Assembly: GCF_029502005.1 (NCBI RefSeq)
Contig: NZ_JAMQOT010000012.1
Location: 1 to 64,000, forward strand
Source: Natrinema salsiterrestre
GTDB lineage: Archaea > Halobacteriota > Halobacteria > Halobacteriales > Natrialbaceae
Reading direction: 5' to 3'
Length of the DNA stretch: 64,000 nucleotides
How positions within the stretch are numbered: the stretch's first letter is position 1; every line of letters begins with the position of its first letter. The translations under genes were made by a program, and so were the position numbers. Under the pieces are notes generated by a model. It was given only the letters and a program-made list of their open reading frames with translations, searched no databases and was not told the DNA's origin. Positions 6,408 to 38,057 of this stretch are shown in pieces.

Positions 6408-7432
6408 AGCCCAGTGATGACCAACAACAGCAACAGCAGCACAGCGATTGCGGTCTTGTAGTAGACCGGCGGGAGGCCCTCGGGTGCGGCCGCCTCGTCG
6501 ACAGCTTCGACGAGTTCCTGTTCGTGTTCGTGCTCCTGCTGGAAAGTTTCGTACGCAGCCTCGAGTTGCTGCTCCAGCGGTTCGACCTCACTCGCAAGGA
6601 ACTCCTCGCGAGAACTCACGATATACTCGCCGGCGGCGGTCGGCGTGATCGTCGCGACGTCCGCCACCTGGTCCGCGATGAGCCGGTCATCGGTGTGTCC
6701 AATCGCGGTGACTACGGGGGTATTGGCGGTGAAGATCGCCTCCGCGACCCGCTCGGTGTTGAAGGCTTGGAGGTTGGAATCACTCCCACCGCCGCGGCCG
6801 ACGATGATCGCGTCGACGTCCTCCGAGCGGTCCAGATGGTGGATGCCGTTCGCGATGGACGTCGGCGCCTCCGATCCCTGGACGGTTGCGTCCTTCACTA
6901 GGATGTCGACGGTTGGATCCTGCTCGTGGATCGCGTTCTGGATGTCGTACCGGGCGTCTCCTCGGAGAGAAGTGACAACACCGACTCGCTCCGGGAACGC
7001 CGACGGGCGCTGTTTCTGTTCGTCGTCGAACCAGCCACGCTCTTCGAGTTCGCTTCGTAGTCGCTCCACGGCAGCCGCCTGGTCGCCGTCGCCGACGACG
7101 ATCACTTCCCACGGTTTGAGGTCGATTTTCCCACCTTCGACCCAGTACTCGATATCGCCCTCGAGGATGACCTCGGTTCCGTCTTCGAGTTCGGCGTCCA
7201 TATCCCGGTAGCGGTTCGCCCAGATCATACAGGGGAGCTCGGCTTCGCCATCCGTGAGCGTAAAATAGAGCGCAGTACTGTTTTGGTGGAGATCGGTAAC
7301 TTCTCCGATACAGCGGACACTGTGGAGGGCAGACGTTTCTTCGATAGCCGATGCAATCCGCTCGTTCAGCTCCTGCACTGAAAGAACATCCCCGGAGCGA
7401 ACTTCATCTCCCTCGCGTTCAGCATCAGCCAT
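6389..7432 (-). CDS. xseA: Exodeoxyribonuclease VII large subunit with a C-terminal membrane helix
   Basis: 347 residues. An OB-fold DNA-binding domain (about 15-110) is followed by the catalytic domain with AFPERVGVVTSLRGDARYD, the IIVGRGGGSDSNLQAFNTE loop and GHTDDRLIADQVADVATITP, all typical of XseA. The usual long coiled coil is shortened to about 40 residues (LASEVEPLEQQLEAAYETFQ). The chain ends in a very hydrophobic helix (about 325-345) where bacterial enzymes are soluble, so this nuclease may be membrane-tethered. It lies upstream of and overlaps xseB, and downstream of the tbp gene. Confidence 0.85.
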   Translation of the reverse strand: MADAEREGDEVRSGDVLSVQELNERIASAIEETSALHSVRCIGEVTDLHQNSTALYFTLTDGEAELPCMIWANRYRDMDAELEDGTEVILEGDIEYWVEGGKIDLKPWEVIVVGDGDQAAAVERLRSELEERGWFDDEQKQRPSAFPERVGVVTSLRGDARYDIQNAIHEQDPTVDILVKDATVQGSEAPTSIANGIHHLDRSEDVDAIIVGRGGGSDSNLQAFNTERVAEAIFTANTPVVTAIGHTDDRLIADQVADVATITPTAAGEYIVSSREEFLASEVEPLEQQLEAAYETFQQEHEHEQELVEAVDEAAAPEGLPPVYYKTAIAVLLLLLLVITGLWLGVI

Positions 7433-7516
7433 CGATCCGACTTAAAAAGTGAGTAGGAGAGACAAAAATGTACTCCCAGTGGCGGCGCCTCCGACGACCT
7501 GGTTTGAGTCCCCAAA

Positions 7517-8077
7517 TCAGTCCAGTAGCCCGAGATCGTTGAGCTGGTCTTCGATCTTCGTGAGGGCTTGTTCGGCGTCATCAAGTTGCTTGCCGCCAGT
7601 GATGACGAGCTTCCCACTGCCAAAGAGGAGCGCGACGACGTCCGGATTGTCGAGCCGGTAGACGAGTCCGGGGAACTGTTCGGGTTCGTATTCGATGTGT
7701 TCGAGCCCCAAGCCGATAGCGATGGCATTCAAATTGAGTGTGTGGTCGAGGTCGCCACTTGAGACGATATTCTGGATTTCAATCGCCGGAGAAGCAGCGA
7801 CATCGACGCCCAACTCGCGGAGTTCGTCGAAGACGTGCTCAAGGGCGGTCGTAACGTCGTCAACGCTTTTCGCACCTGTACAGACGACTTTCCCCGAGCG
7901 GAAGATGAGTGCTGCGGCTTTTGGATCGTGCATCCGATACACGAGACCAGGGAAGTTATCGGGATCGTAGTCGGTCGCCCCTAGGTCTTCGGAGAGCGTT
8001 TCAAGATCGAGTTCCTGGCCGATATCGGACGATGCAACCACGTTCTCAACTTGAATTGACTCGGTTGTGACACTCAT
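7517..8077 (-). CDS. tbp: TATA-box binding protein (TBP)
   Basis: 186 residues made of two imperfect direct repeats of about 90 residues, the TBP saddle. Each repeat carries the FPGLVYR and SGKVVCTGAKS / SGKLVITGGKQ signatures. It recognises TATA boxes and recruits TFB and RNA polymerase. Haloarchaea often hold several TBPs, with extra copies on plasmids that favour subsets of promoters; this copy sits beside a histone-fold gene and exonuclease VII. No tfb gene is visible here. The acidic C-terminus is intact. Confidence 0.95.
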   Translation of the reverse strand: MSVTTESIQVENVVASSDIGQELDLETLSEDLGATDYDPDNFPGLVYRMHDPKAAALIFRSGKVVCTGAKSVDDVTTALEHVFDELRELGVDVAASPAIEIQNIVSSGDLDHTLNLNAIAIGLGLEHIEYEPEQFPGLVYRLDNPDVVALLFGSGKLVITGGKQLDDAEQALTKIEDQLNDLGLLD

Positions 8078-17646: not shown

Positions 17647-18747
17647 TCAAGAGAGCGGATCTCGTCCTTCATACTCACCGCTCTCACCATATTCCGGCCG
17701 CTGGAAACCACCCTCACGGTAGACATCGAACTCACCCCGCTCGATGTCGTCCCGGATGATGTCTGCGGTCGTTTCGTCGACGCTCACGAAGTGACACAGC
17801 GGATGCCCCGGGTACGCGACTGCGTTCTCGAGTACACCGACGACGAGGCCAGTTGACGGTGCACGAACGACTTCGACCTCATCTTTGAAGTGATCGGAGA
17901 TAGTGAACAGCTGCTCCCCGTCCTCGACGAGCGGCTGTGGGCCCCACTTCATATCGACGAGTCCGCCGGTGGCAGCACGAAGCCACGTCTTCTCACCGTC
18001 GCGTGCGACCACACGCGTCCACCCAGGCCAAGAGACCGGCCGGTCTGGCAGAACCTCGTGTTCAGCGAGGACACTCGCCACGCAGTGAAGGGCGCGTTCG
18101 AGATGCGTCGATTGGAACCGGTGGGCGCGCCCCATCTCCACAGTTACGGTCGGAACCCCCGTCTTCGATGCTGCCTTTCGGAGCGTCCCGTTTGAGCCTT
18201 CACCGTCGAGAATCACGCTCGTTCCGAATGCACGGGCGATGCGTTCGACGTCAGAGTCGCGCATATCTGCCCGAACGTGATACATCGTCGTCCTGTTGCG
18301 CGTCGAGGTGTGGAAATCCAGCCCTAGGTCGCACTTCGAGACGAATTCCTCGAAGATAGTATGGGCGAGACGTTTCGCCATCGTTCCCTGTGGATTCCCG
18401 GGGAACGACCGGTTGAGGTCCTCGTCATAGATCGGGATGTAGCGCTGTTGGGCCATGAATCCCGGGACGTTCAGTACGTGGAGGCAGACGAGTGCCCCGT
18501 GGATGTCCGGGGGACCGTAGGTTTCTGCGACCTCTTGGACGATCTTGATGCCGTTCAGTTCGTCGCCGTGCACGGCAGCACTGAGGAACATCGCCGGGCC
18601 ATCATTCTCTCCGTTGACGACCGTGACCGGAATGTCGATCGGGTCGCCGTGGAAACTTGTTCCCACCGAATAGCGGAACTGGCGCTTCTCTCCGGGTGAG
18701 ATGGTTCGGCCGCCGACCTCAATCGGTTGTGTCGCGGATCCAGTCAT
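17647..18747 (-). CDS. Succinylglutamate desuccinylase/aspartoacylase-type zinc hydrolase
   Basis: 366 residues. The zinc site is indicated by SAAVHGDELNGIKI (His and Glu) and a downstream LGLDFHTSTRNRTTMYHVRA (His); VTVEMGRAHRFQ follows. These fit the AstE/aspartoacylase branch of M14 metallopeptidases, which cleave acyl-amino acid bonds. The C-terminal third is a beta-rich domain. The start overlaps the previous gene in the operon by 4 nt; together with the ICMT-like and CopB genes it forms one transcript. The link to copper is not explained by known biology. Confidence 0.8.
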   Translation of the reverse strand: MTGSATQPIEVGGRTISPGEKRQFRYSVGTSFHGDPIDIPVTVVNGENDGPAMFLSAAVHGDELNGIKIVQEVAETYGPPDIHGALVCLHVLNVPGFMAQQRYIPIYDEDLNRSFPGNPQGTMAKRLAHTIFEEFVSKCDLGLDFHTSTRNRTTMYHVRADMRDSDVERIARAFGTSVILDGEGSNGTLRKAASKTGVPTVTVEMGRAHRFQSTHLERALHCVASVLAEHEVLPDRPVSWPGWTRVVARDGEKTWLRAATGGLVDMKWGPQPLVEDGEQLFTISDHFKDEVEVVRAPSTGLVVGVLENAVAYPGHPLCHFVSVDETTADIIRDDIERGEFDVYREGGFQRPEYGESGEYEGRDPLS

Positions 18748-19370
18748 TGAGAATCACTCTCGGACTGCTCTGAATGTGTCTGCGCTGCACGTCTACTGGG
18801 TTTACCAAGGAATCGTGGAACCGCCTCGCAGTATGACTCGTATTCGCCCCCGTACTGCTCGCGGAGCCACGGCTCTTCGGCGAGTGGTGCGAGCAGGAAC
18901 CACACGATTCCACCGATAGCGAGAATGACCGTTTGAATCGAACCTGCGAGGAGGCCTCCGCTGGCGAGCATGGTGATGAACCCCACGTACTGTGGATTGC
19001 GAGAGAAGCGATACGGTCCCTCAGTTTGAAGGTGGCCTTCGAGACCACTGCTCTCCCAGAATCCGAGTGTCCACATCGCCCAGATAGACAGCGCTGTGCC
19101 TGCTACGAAAACAAGCACACTGACGAGTTGCACCACCACCGGTGGTTCGTACCAGTGCCACCAGTCGAGGTATGCAATGCCGACCAGACCCACGACGTAT
19201 AGCGTCCAGGCTGTCCAGCTGACCCAGAACGTCCAGTTCCGCGTCCCGTGCGGCCAGAACCGGAATGTCGGACTGACGATGGTGGCAAGGAGGCCACCCA
19301 GTAGGAGTCCCCCGGATAGGAGACTGACGCTGAACAATGTCTGTGTCGCCTGGAGTGCCATAGGGATCAC
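18744..19370 (-). CDS. ICMT/PEMT-like membrane methyltransferase family protein
   Basis: 208 residues with about five hydrophobic helices. The C-terminal region has the isoprenylcysteine methyltransferase-like motifs [14 protein letters not shown] and [20 protein letters not shown]. These membrane proteins use S-adenosylmethionine to methylate lipid-linked or thiol substrates. It is the middle gene of CopB - this - M14 hydrolase, each overlapping the next by 4 nt. Another ICMT-like gene is at 32661. What it modifies in a copper operon is unclear. Confidence 0.75.
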
Positions 19371-21739
19371 GCACCAATGTCGGGCACGGAAATATCGGCG
19401 CTGCGGAGACGACGGGCGTTGATAGCGACGATGATTGTCGAGAGAGACATGAACACCGCGCCGATCGCCGGCGACAGCAGGATACCGATAGGCGCGAGGA
19501 CTCCGGCAGCGAGTGGGAGCGCGAAGACGTTGTAGCCGGTCGCCCAGACCAGATTCTCCTGCATCTTCCGGTAGCTCGCCTTCGAGAGCTTGATGAGACG
19601 GACGACATCCAGGGGATTGTTGTCGACGAGGATGATATCGCCCGACTCGATGGCGACGTCGGTCCCTGAACCGATGGCAATACCGACATCTGCTCGCGTG
19701 AGCGCCGGCGCGTCGTTGACGCCGTCGCCGACCATCGCGACCAGTTTCCCCTCGGACTGGAGCGCTTCGACTTTCGTGTCCTTTTCGTCGGGGAGTACCT
19801 CCGCGAAGTACTGGTCGATGCCGAGTTCCTCCGAGACAGCCCGTGCGACGTCCTCCGAGTCACCGGTCAGCATCGCCACCTCGATATCCATCGCGTGTAG
19901 CGCCTCGATGGCCTGCCGGCTTTCTTCCCGAATAACGTCCGCCAGCGCGAATGCTGCGACAACTTCGGATTCGTCGTGAACCAGGTAGATAACCGTCTCT
20001 GCGTTCGAGCCAGCTTCCTCCGCGAAGGCAGCGATTTCGTTGGACCGCTCGATACCGAATTTCTCAATCAGGTTCGGTCCACCGATATGAACCGTCTCGC
20101 CGTCCACAGTGGCTCTGACGCCGAGACCGCGGAAATTCTCAAAGTTCGAAACCTTCGCTCGCTGGATATCCCGTTCCTCGGCGGCGTCTCGGATGGCGCG
20201 AGCGATCATATGCTCGGAGTCACCCTCGACACCAGCGGCGACTTCGAATGCTCGCTCTTCAGTCCAGTCGCCTGCCGTCTCAACACCGACGACGCCCTGT
20301 TCGCCCTTCGTGAGGGTCCCGGTCTTGTCAAACATCACCGTGTCCAGATTTCGAGATTCCTCCATGGCGATGCGGTCGCGGATGAGCATCCCGTTTTGGG
20401 CAGCCGTGGAAGTGTTGATCGCGACCACGAGCGGGACGGCAAGTCCAAGTGCGTGGGGACACGCGATGACCAGGACCGTCACGACGCGCTCGAGGACGGT
20501 GATGTTGTACCCGACCGCGACGACCCACGCGACGGCAGTAATCGCCGCGACGCCGAGTGCAATATAGAACAGCCAGCCAGCTGCCTTGTCGGCGAGCAAC
20601 TGGGTTCGAGATTTGGACTGCTGGGCCTCGTCGACCAGTCGCATGATGCCCGCCAGCGTCGTCTCGTCGCCGGTCTTCGTGATTTTGACGCGGAGACTCC
20701 CGTCCTGGTTGACCGTCCCGGCGACCACCTCTGATCCGGGCTCCTTCCCAACTGGTCTGGATTCGCCGGTAATCATCGACTCGTCAACGGACGACTCGCC
20801 CTCGACGACTTCGCCGTCGGCAGGCACGCTCGCGCCCGGGCGAACGAGCACGACGTCGTCCTCGCCGAGTTCGGAGACGGGCACTTCCTCGGTATCTCCA
20901 CTCTCGGTGATACGCTCGGCGGTATCGGGCATGAGCTTCGCGAGTTCGTCCAGCGCCCCCGAGGCCGCCCGGACCGACCGCATCTCCACCCAGTGGCCCA
21001 GCAGCATGATGTCGATCAGCGTGACGAGTTCCCAGAAAAACGGTGTCGTCCCTTCGAGAAACAGACTCGCGATCGAGTAGACGAACGCCACCGATATCGC
21101 CAGCGAGATGAGCATCATCATCCCCGGCTCGCGGTTTTTCAGTTCCGTCCGGGCCATCGAGAGGAAGGGCACGCCACCGTACGCGAAGATCACGACCGCA
21201 AGTACCGGCGTTATCCACGTACTCCCGGGGAACGTAGGGGCCGTATAGCCGAAGACGTCCTGAATGAATTCGCTGAAGACGATGACCGGAATCGAGAGGA
21301 CGAGCGACACCCAGAACCGCCGCCGAAACATCGCCTCGTGGCCCGAGTGATCCGTGTGATCGCTGTGATCCCCGTTTCCACCCCCGTGTCCCTTCTCGTG
21401 GGCGTTACCACCATGGTCGTGCTCGTCGTGTACGTGCTCTGCTTCTGTAGAGTGAGCGTGCTCGGCCGCAGCGTGGCGGTGCGGGTGTTCGGCTTCGTGG
21501 TCGTTATGTGCGTGTTCGTCCGTGGATTCGGACTCCGTGGTGGCGTCTGCCGCAGTGTGAGTGTCGTCCTTCGGGAGTTTGGACTCCGGCTCGGATGACG
21601 CGTGGGCTGATGCTCGTGGTTCCGACTCTGCTTTCAATCGGCAAATTCGACAACAGTAGACGGGTCCTTCGGATTGATGCGAGGGGTGCCCCTCTTTAGA
21701 GGGATTTTCGGATGTCTCGTGGTCTGGATTGTTGCTCAT
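19367..21739 (-). CDS. copB: CopB-type heavy-metal P-type ATPase with a His-rich N-terminus
   Basis: 790 residues. The first about 135 residues are extremely His/Asp/Glu-rich ([20 protein letters not shown]), after a CCRIC cluster. The core has eight helices, a CPHALGL ion-translocation motif (CPH is typical of CopB-like exporters), the phosphorylation loop DKTGTLTKG, a TGES actuator and [10 protein letters not shown]. It uses ATP to move copper or a related ion across the membrane. It heads an operon with the ICMT-like and M14 genes, and lies downstream of the divergent HMA/Lrp locus. Confidence 0.9.
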
Positions 21740-21862: not shown

Positions 21863-22060
21863 TCAGGCGTGGGCGGTGTATCCAGCGTCCTCGACGGCTT
21901 GAACGAGTGACGTGACGTCAGCATCGCCATCGACGCTCGCCTGTTTGGCCTCGCGATCGGCAGTCGCGTCGGTCACGCCGCTCACTTCTCGAAGCGCGTC
22001 TTCGACTGTCTGTTCACAGTGACCGCAGGTCATTCCTTCGACAGTGATGGTCTGCGTCAT
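21863..22060 (-). CDS. copZ: CopZ-like heavy-metal-associated chaperone
   Basis: 65 residues from the ATG at 22060; a codon at 22072 would add MYQC. It is a single HMA fold with the Cu(I) site GMTCGHC at residues 9-15 and a typical C-terminal VQAVEDAGYTA. It carries Cu(I) in the cytoplasm to the ATPases. The gene is 123 nt upstream of copB on the same strand and divergent from the Lrp-TRASH gene. Confidence 0.9.
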   Translation of the reverse strand: MTQTITVEGMTCGHCEQTVEDALREVSGVTDATADREAKQASVDGDADVTSLVQAVEDAGYTAHA

Positions 22061-22100
22061 ACACTGGTACATACGGGAGGGGAATCTTTGTCAGTTTCTG

Positions 22101-22127
22101 CTTCGAATCCAAAGTCTATCTTGGAAG
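22101..22127. promoter_or_regulatory. Metal-locus motif GAWTCYAAAKTCT in the copZ / Lrp divergent region
   Basis: The sequence CGAATCCAAAGTCTATCTTG (22104-22123) contains GAATCCAAAGTCT. The same 13-nt pattern is found upstream of copA (22861) and of the YHS permease (31037). It lies between the divergent copZ and Lrp-TRASH genes, about 66 nt before the Lrp start. It could be a regulator site or a promoter element; not tested. Confidence 0.4.
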
Positions 22128-22192
22128 TGGGATGGCATTCAAATCTTGGCGCTGGGAAACAATATTGTGGTTCGGGGGTTCAATGGGGAGAT

Positions 22193-22783
22193 ATGCGTGA
22201 TTTAGACGAGACAGACATGGAGATCCTCTCGCTACTAGCAGAGGACGCGCGACGCCCGTTCAGCAGCATCGGTGAGGAGGTGGATCTCTCGGGGCCAGCC
22301 GTATCAGACCGCGTGAAACGGTTAGAGGAGGCCGACATCATCAACGGCTTCACCGTCGACGTGAATCGCGCACAACTGCGAGCTGGCGTTCCGGTGTTCG
22401 TCCAGCTCGAAAACGATACCGCTGCCATCGAGTCACTTCGAAGCCGGCTCCACGACGCGGATGGTATCGAACACCTCTTCGTCACTGCCGAGGGGAAAAT
22501 ATGGTTCTACGGTCGTGCGGAAGGACAGAACGTTCGCCGGTGGGTCGAGGGTCTCCTCGAAGACGCGCCATCAACGGAGTACTCGGTGACGCTCGTCGAC
22601 GACCTCGAATGGACACCCTCACTCGACCGCACCGAGTTCGCAATCACGTGCGCCGAGTGTGGAAATACGGTCGATAGCGAGGGCGAATCCGCTCGAATCG
22701 ACGGAGACATCTATCACTTCTGTTGTCCGTCGTGCCGTGGCCGCTTCGAAGACCAGTATCAACGTCTCGAAGACGGAGTCTAG
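22193..22783 (+). CDS. Lrp/AsnC-type regulator with a C-terminal TRASH metal-binding domain
   Basis: 196 residues. The Lrp HTH is DETDMEILSLLAEDARRPFS and onward (VDLSGPAVSDRVKRLEEADI). The RAM-like effector domain spans about 65-145. The TRASH motif is ITCAECGNTVDS and YHFCCPSCRGRFED, with a four-Cys set. Haloarchaeal proteins of this architecture are known copper-responsive regulators. It is divergent from copZ, and copA lies 160 nt downstream, so it probably controls both. Confidence 0.9.
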   Translation: MRDLDETDMEILSLLAEDARRPFSSIGEEVDLSGPAVSDRVKRLEEADIINGFTVDVNRAQLRAGVPVFVQLENDTAAIESLRSRLHDADGIEHLFVTAEGKIWFYGRAEGQNVRRWVEGLLEDAPSTEYSVTLVDDLEWTPSLDRTEFAITCAECGNTVDSEGESARIDGDIYHFCCPSCRGRFEDQYQRLEDGV

Positions 22784-22855: not shown

Positions 22856-22880
22856 CCTTTGAATCTAAATTCTATACTGG
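22856..22880. promoter_or_regulatory. Metal-locus motif upstream of copA
   Basis: CCTTTGAATCTAAATTCTAT (22856-22875) holds GAATCTAAATTCT, whose GAAT/ATTC halves are inverted repeats around CTAA. It lies about 70 nt before the copA start and matches the motif at 22101 and 31031. Whether it binds the Lrp-TRASH protein or is part of the promoter is not known. Confidence 0.45.
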
Positions 22881-22943: not shown

Positions 22944-25550
22944 ATGGGAACGCGAACTGCACATCTCGACATCACAGGGATGACCTGTGCTAACTGTTCG
23001 GCGACAGTTGGCGACGCGCTAGGGTCCCTCGACGGCGTCGTTGAGGCGAACGCGAACTTCGCCACGGATGAAGGCTCCGTCGAGTACGATCCTGACGAGG
23101 TATCGCTCGAAGAGATATACGAGGCGATCGAAGATGCCGGGTATGGTGCGGTGTCTGACACAGTGACCATCGGCATCTCCGATATGACCTGTGCCAACTG
23201 TGTACAGACCAATGAGACTGCCCTAGAGAACACACCCGGTGTCATCGCGGCCGAGGCGAACTTCGCCACCGACGAAGCCCAGGTCCGGTACAACCCCGCG
23301 GACACGTCGCTGGATGCACTCTACGATGCCATCGAGAGCGCGGGCTACTCGCCCGTCCGAGAGGACGGCGACGACAGCGACTCTGGCGAGGACGCGCGCG
23401 ACGCCGCGCGACAGGCTGAAATCCGTAAGCAGCTTCGACTGACCCTGTTTGGTGCGGTGCTGTCGGCACCTCTCCTCTTTTTCCTCGCCGAGAAGTTCCT
23501 CCTCGGCGGTGGCGTCCTCCCGGAGACCATTCTCGGAATCGAGTTCGGCTGGGCAGAGTTCCTGCTGGCGACGCCCGTCCAGCTGGTGCTCGGTTGGCCG
23601 TTCTACAAGAACTCGTACAATGCGCTGGTGAACAACAAGCGCGCCAACATGGACGTCCTGATCGCGCTGGGCTCGACCACTGCGTACGTCTACTCTGTCG
23701 CAGTCCTCTCAGGGCTCATCGCGGGCGGCCTGTACTTCGACACCGCCGCGCTCATCCTCGTGTTCATCACCCTCGGGAACTACCTTGAAGCCCGCTCGAA
23801 GGGCCAAGCCGGCGAGGCGCTCCGCAAGCTGCTGGAGATGGAGGCCGAGACCGCCACCGTCGTCGATGAGGCCGGCAACGAGGAGGAGATCCCACTTGAG
23901 GACGTCGAGGTCGGCGATCGGATGAAGGTTCGGCCTGGCGAGCAGATCCCGACCGACGGGGTCGTCGTCGATGGCCAGTCAGCGGTCGACGAGTCGATGG
24001 TCACCGGCGAGTCTGTCCCCGTCGAGAAGAGCGAGGGTGACGAGGTCGTCGGCTCGACTATCAACGAGAACGGCGTGCTCGTCGTGGAGGCGACGAAGGT
24101 CGGGAAGGACACGGCGCTTCAGCAGATCGTTCAGACGGTCAAGGACGCCCAGTCGCGCCAGCCCGACATCCAGAACCTCGCCGACCGCATCTCGGCGTAT
24201 TTCGTGCCGGCAGTCATCGCCAACGCCGTTCTCTGGGGTGTCGTCTGGTACCTGTTCCCCGGAGCGCTCGCGAGCTTCGTCGAGTGGCTCCCGCTGTGGG
24301 GTGCCGTGGCAGGTGGACCTGCAATCGCTGGAGGGACCGTCACCGTCTTCGAGTTCTCGATCATCGTGTTCGCGTCGGCCGTACTGATCGCCTGTCCCTG
24401 TGCGCTGGGCCTTGCGACGCCTGCCGCGACGATGGTCGGGACGACTATCGGTGCACAGAACGGCGTCCTGTTCAAGGGCGGTGACATCCTCGAACGCGCG
24501 AAGGACGTCGACACGGTCGTCTTCGACAAGACAGGGACGTTGACGAAAGGCGAAATGGAGCTCACCGACATCGTCGTGTTCGACGGTGACGGACAGCCTC
24601 TCACGGATGGCGGCGATACTGCTGCAGATGGTGGCCAACTGACCGCTCGTGACCGTCTCGGTGAGGAAGATGTCCTTCGGCTCGCGGCCACGGCCGAACA
24701 TGCGAGCGAACACCCGCTCGCCCGTGCCATTGTCGACGGCGCCGAAGAGCGGGGGATCGACGTGAGCGACCCGGACCACTTCGAGAACGTCCCCGGCCAC
24801 GGCATCAGAGCGACTGTCGGCAACAGTGAGGTCCTGGTCGGGAATCGGAAGCTCCTCCGTGACAACGGGATCGACCCCTCGCCCGCGCAGGACACGATGG
24901 AGCGCCTCGAGAACGAGGGGAAGACGGCAATGCTCGTCGCCTACGAGGGCGAACTCGTGGGTGTGGTCGCCGATGCCGACACAATCAAAGAGAGCGCGAA
25001 GGACGCTATAAGTCAGCTCCAAGAACGTGGTGTCGACGTGATGATGATCACCGGCGACAACGAGCGGACCGCCCGCGCGGTCGCCGAGCAGGTCGGCATC
25101 GCTCCCGAGAACGTCCGCGCGGGGGTTCTCCCCGAGGACAAATCCGATGCCGTCGAGAGCATTCAGGACGAAGGCCGGAAGGCGATGATGGTGGGCGACG
25201 GCGTCAACGATGCGCCCGCCCTCGCCGTCGCGTACGTGGGGACCGCCATCGGCTCGGGGACGGACGTGGCCATTGAGGCGGCGGACGTGACGCTGATGCG
25301 CGACGACCCCCTCGACGTCGTGAAGGCCATCCGCATCTCGGACGCGACGCTCGCGAAGATCAAGCAGAACCTCGTCTGGGCGCTCGGGTACAACACCGCG
25401 ATGATCCCGCTGGCGTCGCTGGGCCTACTCCAACCGGTGCTCGCTGCCGGTGCGATGGCGTTCTCCAGCGTGTCGGTGCTGTCGAACAGCCTGCTGTTCC
25501 GACGGTACACCCCCGATCACGACTACAAACTGCTCGGGAAGCTGCGCTGA
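22944..25550 (+). CDS. copA: CopA-type Cu(I)-exporting P-type ATPase
   Basis: 868 residues. Two N-terminal HMA domains with MTCANC at 13-18 and 81-86 precede eight helices, the [11 protein letters not shown] translocation site, [18 protein letters not shown] and [10 protein letters not shown]. It exports Cu(I) from the cytoplasm using ATP. A short insert ([19 protein letters not shown]) sits in the nucleotide-binding region. The next gene begins 20 nt downstream and starts a five-gene run on the same strand, so copA may head a larger operon. Regulation is likely by the Lrp-TRASH protein just upstream. Confidence 0.95.
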
Positions 25551-25570
25551 ATACCAAAGCCACTTGATCC

Positions 25571-25795
25571 ATGTCCTCTATTTCCCGCCGCAAGGTGCAC
25601 GCGTACCTCGTCGAGACGGCCGATACTGAGCCCACGTACCTTCGGGCTCGGGATATCGCTAGCGACCTCGACGGATCGCCGAAAGCCGTCGCACAGTATC
25701 TGAGCCAGCTCCAGGACGACCTCACCGACGTGTCGCTCGAACAGTGGGGACGCTCGAAGAGCACGACGTGGCGACTGGAGGTGAGCGAGTCGTGA
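25571..25795 (+). CDS. Small HTH-like protein (DUF7123-type)
   Basis: 74 residues with a predicted winged helix (YLRARDIASDLDGSPKAVAQ, then YLSQLQDDLTDVSLEQWGRS). Its stop overlaps the GTG of the DUF63 gene by 4 nt and it follows copA by 20 nt. Such small proteins are thought to bind DNA, but the target is unknown. Being inside the copA-led run, it may be a local regulator. Confidence 0.7.
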   Translation: MSSISRRKVHAYLVETADTEPTYLRARDIASDLDGSPKAVAQYLSQLQDDLTDVSLEQWGRSKSTTWRLEVSES

Positions 25796-26793
25796 GCACC
25801 GTCACTCGCCGCGTCGAATCCGCCCTCCCCGCCACTGGAACTCGGGAGTGGTGGGTCCTGTATCTGCTCGCCCCGGTCGTCCTCGTCGGTGCAGCACTCC
25901 TCGCATTCCCGACGCTCGTCTACGACCGATTCGTCTGGCAGTATCTCTGGGGCCCGGTCGTCGCTGACGCTGCCGGCCAGCCAGTCACGCACGAGGGAAT
26001 ACGGGCCGTCCGCGGATACAACGCCGTGAACACGGTGACGTACCTCGCGGCCGTCGTGTACAGTCTCCCCGGGCTCCGAGCGTATCTCGACTCCCTCAAT
26101 GTCACGTACGACGCTCGACTCGCGTACGGGTTCGCGCCAATCATCGTTGCTGGCGGAGCGATGCGCGCCCTCGAGGATATCGGCCTGCTCGGTGACTACG
26201 CCGTGCTGTTCATCACGCCGTCGATCTACTTCGTCGTCACCGCCGTCACCGTCCTCTCACTCGGCGTCGGCGCACTCGCGCGTAACCGGAATATCGGGTC
26301 CATCCCGTCGATAGTCGGTCTCGTTGGAACGGTCTGGGCGATCGGTGCCGTCGGGTGGGCGCTCTGGCACGGGCTCTCGACGTCGGCTCCACTCCGCGTG
26401 TGGGTGCCGGTCGCGACGACGGGGATCGCCCTCGGTGTGACCGCGCTCTACTACTGGGGAGCGAGTCTCGTCGATGTCGCACACCTTCGACACCCGTTGT
26501 TCCTGCTGGCCGTCTTCGGCCAGATGTGGGATGCGGCGCAGAATCTCATCGGCGTCACGTTCCTCGGCTATTCACCCAAGCTGGTCGTGACGAATCTCGT
26601 GTACCAGGCGACCGGCTTCTCGGGGTCGACGTTCGTCCTCAAACTCCTCGTGACCGGCGGTATCGTGTGGTACCTCGCGGACGCGAAAGACGAAATGAAC
26701 CACACCTGGTGGTGGCTCATGACGTTCTTCATCGGAGCGATTGGGCTCCCGATGGGCGTCCGTGGATCGCTTCGGATGATGCTCGGAGTCTGA
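25792..26793 (+). CDS. DUF63-family integral membrane protein
   Basis: 333 residues from the GTG at 25792, in the GTGA overlap with the previous gene. About eight hydrophobic helices and the stretches APVVLVGAALLAFPTLVYDR and MRALEDIGLLGDYAVLFITP match the archaeal DUF63 family. No function is established. It is co-transcribed with copA and the small genes around it, giving a possible role in copper or envelope handling, which is inference. Confidence 0.8.
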   Translation: MSTVTRRVESALPATGTREWWVLYLLAPVVLVGAALLAFPTLVYDRFVWQYLWGPVVADAAGQPVTHEGIRAVRGYNAVNTVTYLAAVVYSLPGLRAYLDSLNVTYDARLAYGFAPIIVAGGAMRALEDIGLLGDYAVLFITPSIYFVVTAVTVLSLGVGALARNRNIGSIPSIVGLVGTVWAIGAVGWALWHGLSTSAPLRVWVPVATTGIALGVTALYYWGASLVDVAHLRHPLFLLAVFGQMWDAAQNLIGVTFLGYSPKLVVTNLVYQATGFSGSTFVLKLLVTGGIVWYLADAKDEMNHTWWWLMTFFIGAIGLPMGVRGSLRMMLGV

Positions 26794-26795
26794 CA

Positions 26796-27254
26796 ATGGA
26801 GACGATGAACACAAACGGTACGACACGACAGTACGGCGCGGCAATCGCACTCGTCTCGGGAGTCTACTCGCTGCTCTCCGCGACAGGTGGCACCGGGATG
26901 ATGGGCTCGAACAGCGGGCTCCTCATGGCGCTCCTCGGCGTCGTCGTGGTCGTCCACGGCGTCGTTCTGCTGACGCCCTATGCGGATCGGCTCGGGAACG
27001 CGAGTGGTCCCCTGATGATCGGCTACTCGCTCGTGATGTTGCTCAACCAGGCGCTGGTCGGCGTCACCGGGAGTGTGAACTGGGGAATGGGTAGCGGGAT
27101 GGGGTCCGGTATGAACGGCGGGATGAGCGGCGGCATGGGGTCGTCGATGACTGCCGGGATGGGCTGGGACCTCGGAATGGTCGCGCTCGCAGTCCTGATG
27201 TTGATCAGCGGCGTGATTATGACGAACCGACGAAACGACAGCACAGGGATGTAA
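26796..27254 (+). CDS. Four-helix membrane protein with a strict Met-x-x-x repeat
   Basis: 152 residues. Hydrophobic helices are at about 13-30, 40-60, 68-90 and 125-142. Between the last two is a Gly/Met-rich loop in which Met lies at residues 98, 102, 106, 110, 114, 118 and 122, exactly every fourth residue, with Gly or Ser between. Met-rich motifs of this type bind Cu(I) in several copper-handling proteins, so an extracytoplasmic copper site is plausible. It begins 2 nt after the DUF63 gene and 13 nt before DUF1405. Family unknown. Confidence 0.75.
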   Translation: METMNTNGTTRQYGAAIALVSGVYSLLSATGGTGMMGSNSGLLMALLGVVVVVHGVVLLTPYADRLGNASGPLMIGYSLVMLLNQALVGVTGSVNWGMGSGMGSGMNGGMSGGMGSSMTAGMGWDLGMVALAVLMLISGVIMTNRRNDSTGM

Positions 27255-27267
27255 TTCGGCGAGACGA

Positions 27268-27972
27268 ATGACATCCGCACCTACAGCGACCACGAATCGA
27301 CTGCCCAGCTACCTTGCCCCACTCCCCCGGCGCGTCGAGGACTTCGCACTTCGGTACGCGTGGGTCATCGTCGCGATAAATCTGGCCGGGACTGCGTTCG
27401 GGTTCTGGTACTACCGCTTCCAGCTGGCCCAAACCCCGATAGTGATGTGGCCGTTCGTCCCCGACAGCCCCGCCGCGACGCTGTTCGTCGCGCTCAGTCT
27501 CGCCGCGTGGAAACTGGATTACGACGTCGAGTGGCTCCATATGCTCGCCTTCTTCGGCAACATCAAACTCGGTCTCTGGACGCCGTTCGTCCAGCTGGTT
27601 CTCAACGGACCGGGCGGTATCGAACCCTGGCTCTACTGGTTCCTCATCGTAAGCCATCTCGCGATGAGCCTCCAGTCGTTCCTGATCTATCGCTACGCCG
27701 AGTTCACGGTCGGTGCGGTCGCCGTCACCACCGTCTGGTACGGCCTCAACGACATCGTGGACTACTTCGCGCCGCTCGTCGGGGAGTTTCACCACACGTT
27801 CCTGCGGGCCGAACTCGTCAACGGCGCACTCGATCACTCGGTGCGAGCGCACGACCTCGCAGCGGCCGCGGCCGTGACGCTGACGCTCGCCGCGGCGTTT
27901 CTCGCACTAGCGACACGGGTGAAGAAGCTCGAAACAACTGAGGAGTCCTCCGCACGAGGGGTGCGCCGATGA
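27268..27972 (+). CDS. DUF1405-family membrane protein
   Basis: 234 residues with about six hydrophobic helices. YAWVIVAINLAGTAFGFWYY and WLHMLAFFGNIKLGLWTPFV are typical of DUF1405. The family has no known function. It overlaps the cupredoxin start by 4 nt and follows the Met-repeat gene by 13 nt, so it is a member of the copA-led operon. Confidence 0.85.
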   Translation: MTSAPTATTNRLPSYLAPLPRRVEDFALRYAWVIVAINLAGTAFGFWYYRFQLAQTPIVMWPFVPDSPAATLFVALSLAAWKLDYDVEWLHMLAFFGNIKLGLWTPFVQLVLNGPGGIEPWLYWFLIVSHLAMSLQSFLIYRYAEFTVGAVAVTTVWYGLNDIVDYFAPLVGEFHHTFLRAELVNGALDHSVRAHDLAAAAAVTLTLAAAFLALATRVKKLETTEESSARGVRR

Positions 27973-28394
27973 ACGGCTATTCACGACGGTCGGTACTTCG
28001 CCGGAGCCGGAGTGTGCTAGCAGTCGGGGCAACCGCGATTGCTGGCTGTCTCGGAGGTAGCGGCCCGTCGGGTCCGACGGTCACGATGACGGGCGACCTC
28101 CGATTCGATCCGGGCGAAGTCGCAATCGACCCCGGTCAGCAGGTCACCTGGGTGAACGAGAGTGGAGTCCCCCATACCGCATCGGCATACGAAGAAGGGA
28201 TTCCCGACGAGGCGTCGTACTTCGCAAGCGGCGGCTACGAGTCCGAGCAGGCTGTCCGGTTGAGTACGTCAGCGAGAGGGTTTCTCGAACGGGGCGAAAC
28301 CTACAGTTACACGTTCGACGTCACGGGGACGTACCAGTATTTCTGCCTGCCACACGAGGAAAGCGGGATGGTCAGACGTGTCATCGTCGAATGA
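27969..28394 (+). CDS. Cupredoxin (halocyanin-like) Tat lipoprotein
   Basis: 141 residues. The N-terminal Tat lipoprotein signal is RRSRSVLAVGATAIAGC, followed by a Gly/Ser/Pro linker. The blue-copper ligand set is complete: His in GVPHTASAYE, then Cys, His and Met in FCLPHEESGM near the end. It carries electrons as Cu(I)/Cu(II) on the outer membrane face, or buffers copper. It is the last gene of the copA-led run; its ATG overlaps DUF1405. Confidence 0.9.
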   Translation: MNGYSRRSVLRRSRSVLAVGATAIAGCLGGSGPSGPTVTMTGDLRFDPGEVAIDPGQQVTWVNESGVPHTASAYEEGIPDEASYFASGGYESEQAVRLSTSARGFLERGETYSYTFDVTGTYQYFCLPHEESGMVRRVIVE

Positions 28395-31030: not shown

Positions 31031-31055
31031 CCCCTTGATTCTAAATTCTGCTAGG
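31031..31055. promoter_or_regulatory. Metal-locus motif upstream of the YHS permease
   Basis: CCCCTTGATTCTAAATTCTG (31031-31050) contains GATTCTAAATTCT, 12 of 13 identical to the copA copy. It lies about 105 nt before the permease start and is the third member of the set in this window. The function is inferred only. Confidence 0.45.
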
Positions 31056-31155: not shown

Positions 31156-32490
31156 ATGGACAGATCAGATTACGCGATCCTCTCGGTTATCGCCGTAATC
31201 ACCGTCGCCATCGGCATCGTCACGACGACAAAACCGCTCGGGACGTTCGTCGTGGAGAGCACGAGGCAGGCCGCGACGACGACCGCCGCGATGGCGTGGA
31301 TCACCTGGTGGGCGCTCGTCATCGGGTTCGCCATCGCCGGCGGCGTCGAGGCGTGGGTCTCGACCCAGCAGATTTCGGAGCTGCTCGAGGGACACGGGCC
31401 TCGCTCCATCGGCCTCGCCACGTTCTTCGGGTTCGTCTCCTCGTCGTGTTCGTACTCGGCCATCGCCACGGCGAAGAACCTCTACAAGAAGGGGGCGTCG
31501 GCTGCGGCGGCGCTGGCGGCGTTCCAGTTCGCCTCGACGAACCTTGTCATCGAGATCGGCATCGTCATCTGGCTGCTGCTGGGCTGGGAGTTCCTGCTGG
31601 CCGACGTGGTCGGTGGCCTGCTCCTCATCGGCCTGATGTCGGTTGGCTTCGTCTACGTCGTCCCCGACAAGATTCTCGATGAAGCACGCGAGAACGTCAC
31701 CGACGACGAGGGCATCACTGTCCAAGACCCGGTCTGTGGAATGGAGGTCGATCCTGAGGAAACCGACTACTCCATCGAGCACGAGGGCCAGACGTATTAC
31801 TTCTGCTCGCAGTCCTGCAAGGACTCCTTCGACCCGGAGGAAGCGAACACGTCGATTCCGGAGAAGGCGACCTCGTGGTCCGGGTGGAAATCGCTCGCGG
31901 ACAAACAGTGGAAGGAGTGGGCGATGCTGTGGGACGAGATCGCTATCGGGTTCATTTTCGCCGGCCTCATTGCCGGGTTCATTCCCGAAGCCGTCTGGAC
32001 GAGCGTCTTCTCTGGCGCCGTATTCGGTTTGCCGGTGTACGTCCTCTGGACGGCCGCGCTGGGTGCGATCATCGGCGTCGTCACCTTCGTCTGTTCGGTC
32101 GGGAACGTCCCGTTCGGGACCGTCCTCTGGACGCGCGGGCTCCCCTTCGGGTCGGTGCTCTCGTACATCTTCGCGGACCTCATCGTCCCGCCGATCATGA
32201 AAGCCTACGACGAGTACTACGGGACGACCTTCGCGGCGGTACTCAGTCTGATGATCTTCGTCACCGCCGTTATCGCCGGGTTCGTGGTCCACTTCCTGTT
32301 CCTGGGCCTGGGCCTCATCCCCTCACGAGCCTCCGCGCAGATCGCCGAAGTGTCCATCGAGCTCAACTACAAGCTCGTGTTGAACGTCCTCGCGACGGCG
32401 TTCTTCGCGTTCCTCTACTGGCTCCACAAACAGGATTCGGTGGCTGGTGGGGAACGCGGTGACGAGAGACATGCGGCAATGACGGACTGA
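31156..32490 (+). CDS. Soft-metal permease (DUF318/SO_0444-type) with an internal YHS domain
   Basis: 444 residues with about ten hydrophobic helices. The first half has the permease signature FVSSSCSYSAIATAKNLYKK (Cys 98), and the second half repeats the fold (FVCSVGNVPFGTVLWTRGLP). A complete YHS module sits between them (DPVCGMEVDP at 191-200; Cys 217 and 221). The family exports copper, zinc or arsenic-type ions. The YHS domain could present metal to the pore. A second such protein is at 44191. Confidence 0.85.
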   Translation: MDRSDYAILSVIAVITVAIGIVTTTKPLGTFVVESTRQAATTTAAMAWITWWALVIGFAIAGGVEAWVSTQQISELLEGHGPRSIGLATFFGFVSSSCSYSAIATAKNLYKKGASAAAALAAFQFASTNLVIEIGIVIWLLLGWEFLLADVVGGLLLIGLMSVGFVYVVPDKILDEARENVTDDEGITVQDPVCGMEVDPEETDYSIEHEGQTYYFCSQSCKDSFDPEEANTSIPEKATSWSGWKSLADKQWKEWAMLWDEIAIGFIFAGLIAGFIPEAVWTSVFSGAVFGLPVYVLWTAALGAIIGVVTFVCSVGNVPFGTVLWTRGLPFGSVLSYIFADLIVPPIMKAYDEYYGTTFAAVLSLMIFVTAVIAGFVVHFLFLGLGLIPSRASAQIAEVSIELNYKLVLNVLATAFFAFLYWLHKQDSVAGGERGDERHAAMTD

Positions 32491-32660: not shown

Positions 32661-33341
32661 TCATGGGTCTTTGAGATCGTCACTGCTGCTACGAGACTCA
32701 GCCACGAGATCGCGCCACTGCTCCCAGCGGGGGATAAACATCGGCACTTTGCGCTGATAAGTGCGGTAGTCCTCACCGAATGTATCGATCATATCACGCT
32801 CTTCTCTCCGTGCAAGCCACGTAAAAATCACAACGACGAACGGAAATAGAGCGACAGAGAAGATTGTCGGCCAGTGAATGATGCCCTCGCCAAACAGAGC
32901 GATGAACAGACCGGTGTATTGTGGATGGCGGACGTACCTGTAAAGCCCGTCTGTGACCAGTCGGTCGTCCTGTCGGGCACGATAGACTTGTCGCCATCCC
33001 TGAGCAAACAGGCCGATGCCGACAAACGCCACAGCGTAGCCGAGGAGCATTGATACGAACATACCCGTTTCGCCAAACCCGATCAGTGTAGACCAGAGAT
33101 TGGTACTGACGTACTCGCGGTCCAGACCGAAAAACCGGACCAGCAGATAGATCGTCAGTGGAAACCCGTACATCTCCGCATATAATGCGATGATGAACGC
33201 CTGTACCACTCCTGCGCCGACCCACTCCCGCCAGCTGTCAGGAGCGAAGTACCGATAGAAGAACCAAGAAACGACGACAATGAAGATAATCGCGAGGCCC
33301 CAAGCACCGGGATTCGTAATAGTGGTATCTATTGATGACAC
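32661..33341 (-). CDS. ICMT/PEMT-like membrane protein (second copy)
   Basis: 226 residues with about six hydrophobic helices. The family motifs are LYRYVRHPQYTGLFI and RREERDMIDTFGEDYRTYQR. It starts 2 nt after the stop of the frameshifted DoxX gene, so DoxX and ICMT-like genes form a pair here; in the CopB operon the ICMT-like gene sits in a metal transporter context. The substrate is unknown. Confidence 0.8.
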   Translation of the reverse strand: MSSIDTTITNPGAWGLAIIFIVVVSWFFYRYFAPDSWREWVGAGVVQAFIIALYAEMYGFPLTIYLLVRFFGLDREYVSTNLWSTLIGFGETGMFVSMLLGYAVAFVGIGLFAQGWRQVYRARQDDRLVTDGLYRYVRHPQYTGLFIALFGEGIIHWPTIFSVALFPFVVVIFTWLARREERDMIDTFGEDYRTYQRKVPMFIPRWEQWRDLVAESRSSSDDLKDP

Positions 33342-33343
33342 GC

Positions 33344-33901
33344 TTACTTACCCGAGTAGATACTGAGTCCAGGGATGCCGTTCGACAAGCGGCACTCCAC
33401 CAACCTCGTACTGTTCAATGTACGCGTAAGGCCGAGTATCCGTCCCGCACCGAACGCGGCGACTGAGAGGAACACGAGCATGTACGCGAAATCACCGTTG
33501 ATGTAGCCATGTGTGACATCCCAGTTGCCGAAATAGAACATGAGCATCATAAATGCCCCCCAGAACGCAGCGAGCCGAGTGAGGGCACCGAACAACAACC
33601 CGAGGCCGATAAGCAGCTCTCCCCACGGTACTGCAACGTTCACGAAGTCAACAAACCACGGCGTGTTCCCCATCGCGACGAACAGATCAGCGAGTGGACT
33701 CCCGCTATTCGGAACGGCCCCGGTGAGATATCCACCGGCACTAAAACTTCCCGAGAGGACCTTGTCGAGACCACTCTGGAAGAACGCCAGTCCCATCATC
33801 AACCGAAGCGCAAAGATAAACCAGACACTCAACGTGTGTAGTCGACCGCTTGCGGTGAACCCCCCGATCGTACTTTCTAATTGAACTTCTTGAGATGCCA
33901 T
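33344..33901 (-). pseudogene. DoxX-family protein, C-terminus lost by a 1-nt frameshift
   Basis: The first about 150 codons match the DoxX at 9280-9840 closely (LRLMMGLAFFQSGLDKVLSG, PWGELLIGLGLLFGAL, GAGRILGL). After GRILGL the reading frame yields unrelated residues. In another frame the same DNA reads YIEQYEVGGVPLVERHPW and QYLLG, then a stop at 33348-33350, exactly the family C-terminus. One base (C on the plus strand) is missing near 33427, where GTCAAGG would be expected instead of GTAAGG. It may be a recent mutation or a sequencing error. Confidence 0.75.
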
Positions 33902-33996
33902 ATCGTGCTAATTCCCGGGAAGGTGTTATAAAATCGCGTTGGGATCTCGCCATACCGGAATAGAGAGCCCTTTTCGGGGTGATCTCTCCGATACCG

Positions 33997-35253
33997 TCAT
34001 ACTGGCTGAATAGTATCGTATTCCCAGGCGTCTGTGACGGCGGCATACGTCTGCTTGATTACAGCCGGGTTGGAGAAGATCCGAGCAGCCACCCGTGGAT
34101 GCCCCAAGAAGCGACGAAGAACCGCCCGTGGGGATCGATCGATGTCTTCGATGTCGATTCCAGACACCACTTGGACGGCATCACCGAGAACGGTCATCTG
34201 ACGCGTCTCGACGAGGTGCCGCATAATCCGGGCGAGCAGGTACTCCCCTTTCATCGTCCGATAGAGTCGGTCTGGATACTCCTGAAGGCTTCCCTCCGCC
34301 GTCAACTTGGCTGCGAGATACGACGACTGAATTGCTTGCGAGATCCCCTTCCCGGTCAGCCGATTCGCGAGTCCAGCCGCATCCCCGACACGAACGACGG
34401 GCCACTCAGGTAGATAGGTCAGCGCAGGATCGAGACTCGGTCCTTCGGGGATGATAGCGATATTCGTCTGACTCCGAGATGGTATCGGCCAGCCGTTTCG
34501 TTCACACGCCGCCTCAAATGCGGCTATGTAATCGGCTGGGCGTTCGCTCTCAGTCCACCCGATGCCGACGTTTGCCCGCTCGGGCGATTTCGAGAACGCC
34601 CACGCGTACCCGGTATAGCCCTCAAGAACGATCTGGCTATTCGGGTAGAGATCTGAAAAGTCGCCCTCCACGTCAGCATTGAGGGCGATCATCCGACCCG
34701 CGTACTCGTCCGTTCTCCCTCGAACTTTGCTGGTAATCGACGGTTGGCCAGTCGCGTCGACCAAGAGGTCGTATTTATCGGCCAACGTCCGGAACTCCGC
34801 CTTCGTGATCTGGTGGTTTTCGTGAATCGAAACGCCCTTTTCAGCGAGGCGTTCGGACCATCGTCGTTCAACGATGTTTCGGTCGGTGATGTACGTATCG
34901 GAGGCCGGGAATCTCCCACTCCCGGTGTGCTGTCTGCTGGATGTCGTTCCGTCGTAGATATCCACACGTAACTCCGGAAGAGCATTGACGAACCCATTCG
35001 CCGACATCGAACGGAGTGGAATCTTCGAGACGGCCGTCATCGCTTCCCCACAGTTGACTCGTTTGTCGTCGTACGACTGACGTTCGAAAAGGTCTACTTC
35101 GAAACCTCGCTTGGAAAAGCCTTCAGCAGCGGCGAGACCGCCGACTGCCCCACCGAGTACTGCCACGCGTTGGATTCGCGGTAACGGTTCAGACGACTGC
35201 TGTGAGCGAGAGCGGAAACTTTCAGATCGTGAAGTAGTTGTCTCTAATACCAT
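33997..35253 (-). CDS. FAD-dependent oxidoreductase of the geranylgeranyl reductase family
   Basis: 418 residues. The FAD Rossmann motif VAVLGGAVGGLAAAEGFSKR starts near residue 30, the DG/GD motif is VVRVGDAAGLANRLTGKGIS, and GYTGYAWAFSKSPERANVGI is typical of the GGR family. These flavoenzymes reduce isoprenoid or lipid double bonds. A paralogue is at 58292-59497. It follows aconitase with a 26-nt gap and may be co-transcribed. The exact lipid or carotenoid substrate is not evident. Confidence 0.85.
   Translation of the reverse strand: MVLETTTSRSESFRSRSQQSSEPLPRIQRVAVLGGAVGGLAAAEGFSKRGFEVDLFERQSYDDKRVNCGEAMTAVSKIPLRSMSANGFVNALPELRVDIYDGTTSSRQHTGSGRFPASDTYITDRNIVERRWSERLAEKGVSIHENHQITKAEFRTLADKYDLLVDATGQPSITSKVRGRTDEYAGRMIALNADVEGDFSDLYPNSQIVLEGYTGYAWAFSKSPERANVGIGWTESERPADYIAAFEAACERNGWPIPSRSQTNIAIIPEGPSLDPALTYLPEWPVVRVGDAAGLANRLTGKGISQAIQSSYLAAKLTAEGSLQEYPDRLYRTMKGEYLLARIMRHLVETRQMTVLGDAVQVVSGIDIEDIDRSPRAVLRRFLGHPRVAARIFSNPAVIKQTYAAVTDAWEYDTIQPV

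Positions 35254-35279: not shown

Positions 35280-38057
<2,778 letters not shown>

Follow-up and report, generated by a model that had tools for sequence, protein, structure and literature searches.

What does a gene run that starts with a copper exporter and closes with a cupredoxin need with the proteins encoded between them? The question is posed by a stretch of Natrinema salsiterrestre DNA (assembly GCF_029502005.1, contig NZ_JAMQOT010000012.1, positions 1 to 64,000; hereafter the window), which belongs to a 107-kb contig of a genome of 4.79 Mb. Here six co-directional genes (22944-28394, + strand) encode CopA, a DUF7123 protein, a DUF63 protein, a Met-rich protein, a DUF1405 protein and a cupredoxin, with spacings of 20, -4, 2, 13 and -4 nucleotides (nt). 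An earlier reading of this DNA (the sequence-only reading) had taken the run for an envelope copper system with four middle genes of no known role. Open reading frames and Pfam scores bear out the run itself, its families, their order and the gaps; the term envelope copper system was right but unspecific, and a combination of copper export and lipoprotein maturation fits better. The explanation that we favour, with a probability of roughly 0.6, is a copper-responsive operon that would couple Cu(I) export to lipoprotein maturation. The six genes are:

22944..25550, + strand: CopA, Cu(I)-exporting P1B-type ATPase, with two HMA domains and an E1-E2 ATPase domain (TIGR01511, 554.9 bits, cut-off 397)
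25571..25795, + strand: DUF7123 small protein (PF23438, 41.7 bits, cut-off 27)
25792 (GTG start)..26793, + strand: DUF63 integral membrane protein, proposed lipoprotein-lipidating enzyme (PF01889, 139 bits, cut-off 25)
26796..27254, + strand: Met-rich small membrane protein, proposed Cu(I) binder (no Pfam family above cut-off)
27268..27972, + strand: DUF1405 membrane protein, LhaT-like (PF07187, 167.9 bits, cut-off 25)
27969..28394, + strand: cupredoxin lipoprotein, predicted to be exported by twin-arginine translocation (Tat) (PF00127, 64.5 bits, cut-off 21.2)

Conservation and spread of the unit

A search with a DUF63 alignment yielded 78 loci; the 38 closest and six plasmid records were examined, and these 44 loci are 43 distinct ones, because L126 and L068 come from a single record. 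Named plasmids account for nine of the 43, and most of the others are unassigned contigs. The order copA, DUF7123, DUF63 is kept in 42 of these related haloarchaeal loci, at spacings of 17-21 and -7 to -1 nt; the sole exception, L129, possesses DUF63 and a tail without this copA ahead of them. Counted as order-positive by what remains were L134 and L136 (DUF63 in two pieces) and L138 (shortened DUF63), and also L070 (a DUF1405 fragment) and L106 (copA truncated at the contig end). The check that the sequence-only reading had proposed for itself, a search for the gene order behind copA in other haloarchaea, was thus made in related loci and the order was found; what recurs is the set of the first three genes, while the full set of six is a rarer form.

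Behind DUF63 the loci vary. The Met-rich gene followed by DUF1405 is found in 12 of the 43 (one DUF1405 is a fragment), and a cupredoxin lies further downstream in eight of those 12 (one cut by the contig end), with cupredoxin fragments in two more. A geranylgeranyl-reductase-like gene for a flavin adenine dinucleotide (FAD) enzyme stands behind DUF63 in 20 of the 43, at a spacing of 28 nt in 19 of these; the distance in L136 is inflated, DUF63 being broken there. Neither tail is present in 11 loci, and both tails together occur in none of the 43. The host genome carries both operon forms, with the operon described here on its contig C3 and the one with the reductase-like gene on C2; on two further plasmids, copA, DUF63 and the Met-rich gene occur with no DUF1405. 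In L103, L104, L113 and L126 the last 4 nt of DUF1405 also belong to a gene for an Rce1-like intramembrane protease, a possible archaeal lipoprotein-processing enzyme. Given these tail variants, the operon looks assembled stepwise, with a modular tail; that all middle genes always travel together is ruled out by the variable tails and by the plasmids without DUF1405. A protein with Tat motif and lipobox is encoded about 250 nt downstream in L107 and L111, the two that were read from a group of five; it is found at 7254-7748 in both loci, where neither of the common tails is present, and in L107 was identified as DUF411.

Twenty-two plasmid records contain a DUF63 match, 20 of them at an identity of at least 80%, and many haloarchaeal genera are represented. 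Natural carriers include Haloarcula marismortui, which has a plasmid with DUF63, and Halorubrum salinarum, in which the operon is complete. A full-length DUF63 match of at least 86% is found in 23 of 292 genomes of the class, with pieces only in two more. In comparisons of the window with 12 loci, the genes that could be compared have ratios of non-synonymous to synonymous substitutions (Ka/Ks) of 0.05-0.31, which indicates purifying selection; an outlier of 0.49 concerns the cupredoxin against near-identical L101, at very low divergence, and DUF7123 is identical in two loci and hence gives no ratio there. Several loci have reached a synonymous divergence from the window of about 0.4-0.7 per site, with a Ka/Ks of about 0.1. 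The genes are a conserved, horizontally spread copper unit. A chance cluster, which the sequence-only reading had already doubted, is ruled out by the conserved order (42 of 43 loci), the kept gaps and overlaps and the low Ka/Ks.

This conserved unit starts upstream of copA, with a divergently oriented HMA chaperone and a regulator that the sequence-only reading had not mentioned:

21863..22072, - strand: HMA copper chaperone, divergent from the regulator, its position conserved in related loci (PF00403, 69.5 bits)
22101..22114, + strand: operator-like inverted repeat CTTCGAATCCAAAG in the interval between chaperone and regulator, fitting a pattern derived from a 13-row alignment
22190..22783, + strand: AsnC-type regulator with C-terminal TRASH domain (PF24273, 91.8 bits; PF13404, 55.4 bits)
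22857..22870, + strand: second operator-like repeat, upstream of copA, less exact

The AsnC/TRASH regulator is a probable copper sensor. The inverted repeat has the form CTTNGAATCNAAAG and is recognisable in most of the 13 aligned rows. None of the 14 best-scoring repeat places of the window is inside the operon, as would be expected if a single transcript began upstream of copA; a scan for bacterial-type promoters, unsuited to archaea, gave results at chance level. A weaker operator-like match at 31032 is intergenic and lies ahead of the gene for an ArsP_1-type permease with YHS domain (31156-32490, + strand).

Candidate roles of DUF63, DUF1405 and their neighbours

The view that the four middle genes are without known role has to be given up for two of them, as DUF1405 is the family of LhaT (PMC12345273) and the distribution of lipoboxes provides indirect evidence for a lipoprotein role of DUF63. 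In genomes with DUF63, a lipobox is present in 34 of 48 members of the binding-protein family Peripla_BP_2 and in 18 of 20 genomes; in genomes without a DUF63 match it is present in 2 of 24 proteins and 2 of 7 genomes. The negatives are all seven DUF63-less genomes of a 100-genome survey, with G388 (72% complete) and G410 (89%), both without a match, left out. The first set comprised 55 places, 46 of which were classified (out were the repeats L207 and L208, the N-terminus-truncated L210 and L229 and five short places), the second 31 places with 26 classified (out were L258, which has the same frame as L242, the short L256, L263 and L266, and one more). A pair from the same genus agrees with the contrast: G313, without DUF63, has no lipobox in its single protein, and G393, with DUF63, has one in both of two. 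PF13416 was considered as a second test family and dropped, as it matched in just two of 15 genomes.

Of the 100 genomes surveyed in the phylum, 93 have a DUF63 match, and the host has four; the only named control genomes with a match were those of Methanocaldococcus jannaschii, Haloferax volcanii and Methanosarcina acetivorans. Lgt (PF01790) matched in none of 59 haloarchaea, and a comparison of the DUF63 protein of the window with Pfam at expect (E) values up to 1 gave PF01889 as the sole match and no PF01790. Haloferax volcanii is reported to depend on two paralogues, AliA and AliB, as crucial factors in the lipidation of its lipoproteins (PMC12186497), and HVO_2859 is described as a DUF63 protein (PMC9426492). 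This pair of paralogues compares with the exactly two DUF63 genes in each of 14 haloarchaea. AliA and AliB are presumed here to be DUF63 proteins themselves. The plasmid DUF63 clade forms a third, divergent group. Fifteen columns are invariant over 47 plasmid-type and chromosomal rows, seven of them charged (E128, D129, D247, K263, K284, R324 and R328), an invariance over all fifteen that suggests an active plasmid clade. The predicted structure of the protein has a predicted local distance difference test (pLDDT) score of 85.5. No Lgt entry is among the 50 rows shown by Foldseek or VIA-align, which does not exclude a relation, and the DUF63 and DUF1405 profiles found no match among the sequences of solved structures.

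LhaT of Bacillus, a member of the DUF1405 family, moves an acetyl group from acetylated heptaprenylglycerol onto the lipoprotein amine, and its authors suggest archaeal N-acetylation too, noting an N-acetylated lipoprotein of Natronomonas pharaonis with reference to the halocyanin paper (PMC12345273). The DUF1405 protein of the window probably works like LhaT (YpjA of Bacillus subtilis). It belongs to the same family and has conserved residues in common with a Bacillaceae homologue: 33 columns are invariant in five haloarchaeal rows and one Bacillaceae (Cytobacillus) row, among them N38, Q52, D66, K100, H130, N161, D162 and D165, which does not imply a catalytic role. Unlike LhaT, it would act on archaeal lipids, and it is a plasmid copy in a copper operon. 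Of 292 haloarchaeal genomes, 289 have a DUF1405 match; the host has two, which makes the plasmid copy an extra one there. The DUF1405 model, made from a shallow alignment, is too poor (pLDDT 39.1) for a judgement on the six-span fold, and no DUF1405 relatives were confirmed in viral contigs.

The cupredoxin has features of a lipoprotein. Read from its sequence, it possesses a twin-arginine (RR) Tat motif, a lipobox I-A-G-C with Cys27 (28047-28049) and a type-1 copper ligand pattern of H69, C126, H129 and M134. The RR motif and the lipobox are present in the cupredoxin of the window and in six of the seven orthologues examined; in the seventh (L113) the N-terminal region is damaged and a lipobox-like remnant is left. 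Some four membrane spans are expected in the Met-rich protein (three by hydropathy at the threshold used); seven of its 18 Met are in a loop predicted to be outside, and an alignment of 14 rows, two of them from one record, shows 12 invariant Met columns.

Explanations for the copper unit

According to the explanation that we favour, the TRASH regulator would sense copper and drive a single transcript from upstream of copA, and CopA would export Cu(I). DUF63 would attach an archaeal isoprenoid-glycerol lipid to the lipobox cysteine, and DUF1405 would acetylate the amine of this cysteine, once freed, in the manner of Bacillus LhaT. This N-acetylation would remove a copper-binding site, formed by thioether and amine, at the membrane surface, and the exported copper may be bound or passed on by the Met-rich membrane protein and by the cupredoxin in its anchored form. 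Copper is reported to interact with the lipopeptide N-terminus (PMC8275575, PMC7387801), and modification of the N-terminus has been proposed as a way to limit the binding of copper, or the damage it does, at the membrane (PMC7387801, PMC12345273). Since many loci carry DUF63 without a cupredoxin, this set of enzymes probably acts during copper stress on lipoproteins of all kinds, of which the cupredoxin would be one that is encoded nearby.

With its copper exporter, its probable lipidating and N-acetylating proteins and, in some loci, a lipoprotein, the haloarchaeal unit can be read as an archaeal counterpart, built from other enzymes, of the lgt2-lit2 operons. The latter, known from Listeria and Enterococcus, are likewise mobile copper units with a lipidating and an N-terminus-blocking enzyme (PMC8275575, PMC7387801), roles that the haloarchaeal enzymes would share, and lit2 is reported as copper-induced and co-transcribed with lgt2 and copper-resistance genes (PMC8275575, PMC7387801). 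The haloarchaeal unit differs in that it is archaeal, that DUF63 and DUF1405 replace Lgt and Lit, that N-acetylation would take the place of acyl migration, that cupredoxin and Met-rich protein are additional, and that a TRASH regulator is present where lgt2-lit2 operons have CopRS (PMC12345273). Copper induction has been shown for the lgt2-lit2 operons, whereas the haloarchaeal unit shows a TRASH regulator and operator-like sites. Exporter and regulator are of the same types as in the haloarchaeal module of copA and a TRASH-domain regulator, which is not known to include lipoprotein enzymes. A limited literature search found no paper that combines haloarchaea, copper resistance, lipoproteins and P-type ATPases, and a single paper each that mentions DUF63 and DUF1405.

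A more specific version, for which we see a less than even chance, would be a copper-induced plasmid cassette independent of lgt2-lit2, in which DUF63 lipidates, DUF1405 N-acetylates, the cupredoxin is a substrate, and Rce1-like processing or saturation of the anchor by the reductase-like enzyme is added in some loci. If this is true, two domains of life would have met one chemical problem, that of copper bound by the N-termini of lipoproteins, with enzymes of different kinds. The coupling of export and lipoprotein maturation would give probable roles to DUF63 and archaeal DUF1405, provide a testable candidate for the enzyme behind the N-acetylation that an archaeal lipoprotein is reported to carry, and add a second case that links copper resistance to lipoprotein N-terminal chemistry.

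Several observations weigh against such a coupling. The Fisher p values for DUF63 versus lipobox (0.005 by genome, 6e-7 by protein) carry no correction for kinship, one family supplies five of the seven genomes without DUF63, and the positive genomes (nine plus twelve, G346 of the twelve being without a Peripla_BP_2 match) were hand-picked and not random. The frame chosen for two rows of G405 (L267, L268) looks wrong, and both rows weaken the contrast; G300 has a clear lipobox yet no DUF63 match in an assembly that is 93% complete, G298 has no DUF63 match and one doubtful lipobox among four, and G295 and G387 possess DUF63 without a lipobox in Peripla_BP_2. The plasmid-type DUF63 shares no more than 25-31% identity with the chromosomal rows and could therefore have a different substrate, and its model found no match among solved structures at E <=0.001 with Foldseek and a best Z of 5.8 with VIA-align, a level common for helical proteins. 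The DUF1405 protein of the window scores 100.5 bits with the LhaT model (NCBIfam equivalog NF052528), under the cut-off of 255, for which reason we call it a LhaT-like member of DUF1405 and not a LhaT equivalog. DUF63, DUF1405 and cupredoxin are no obligate set, as DUF1405 or the cupredoxin is missing from many loci with DUF63, and the conserved order may reflect the spread of one ancestral cassette. Furthermore, 38 plasmid records carry copA at an identity of at least 80%, of which 20 are the DUF63-bearing records and 18 have no plasmid-type DUF63 match; in the three of these 18 that were viewed, neither DUF7123 nor DUF63 is annotated behind copA. Finally, repeat matches in the window are not clearly above chance, their count being reached in 35 of 100 shuffles and, in another scan, in 6 of 100.

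The same genes allow other explanations. It is conceivable that the middle membrane proteins handle copper directly, as a complex of DUF63, Met-rich protein and DUF1405 that moves or oxidises copper with the cupredoxin; all are part of a copper operon, and the Met-rich protein and the cupredoxin are plausible copper binders. We regard this as unlikely, because DUF1405 is nearly universal in haloarchaea and DUF63 was found in every sampled haloarchaeon as well as in methanogens, a distribution that speaks for a basic job not specific to copper, and the one studied DUF1405 relative is reported to be a lipoprotein acetyltransferase (PMC12345273). Just as improbable seems hitchhiking, in which DUF63 and the tail would be passengers of a successful copA plasmid module, kept by horizontal spread only. 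The many near-identical loci (the 86% group) and the existence of copA loci without DUF63 would agree with passengers; the low Ka/Ks at substantial synonymous divergence, and gaps and overlaps that are maintained across diverged loci, would not. Less probable still is that DUF63 makes or remodels a free membrane lipid and, together with the geranylgeranyl-reductase-like enzyme, alters the membrane under copper. The close and regular position of the reductase-like gene directly behind DUF63 would suit a lipid pathway, but the lipobox contrast and the lipoprotein-related neighbours DUF1405 and cupredoxin point to proteins.

Further genes of the copper island

Additional genes of possible interest surround the unit in the window. 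One of them encodes a relative of the reductase-like enzyme found behind DUF63 in 20 of the 43 loci, to which it is 62% identical:

33997..35253, - strand: geranylgeranyl-reductase-like FAD enzyme of the same island (TIGR02032, 82.8 bits, under the cut-off of 158.8; PF22578, 24.5 bits, under 27)

It stands in a row with genes for an ICMT-type methyltransferase and DoxX (32661-35253, - strand), isoprenoid-related neighbours of the copper genes. No transfer RNA genes were found in the window between its positions 15 and 40 kb. On the other side of the unit, the gene for a second heavy-metal-type P-type ATPase comes ahead of those for an ICMT/PEMT-type methyltransferase and an AstE/AspA-type hydrolase (17647-21739, - strand), an order that is also annotated in L066 and L234. 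The gene for the aconitase AcnA (35280-38057, - strand) recurs in 23 of 44 copper-island locus rows, some of which are shortened by contig ends; a spare aconitase could replace a copper-damaged iron-sulphur enzyme.

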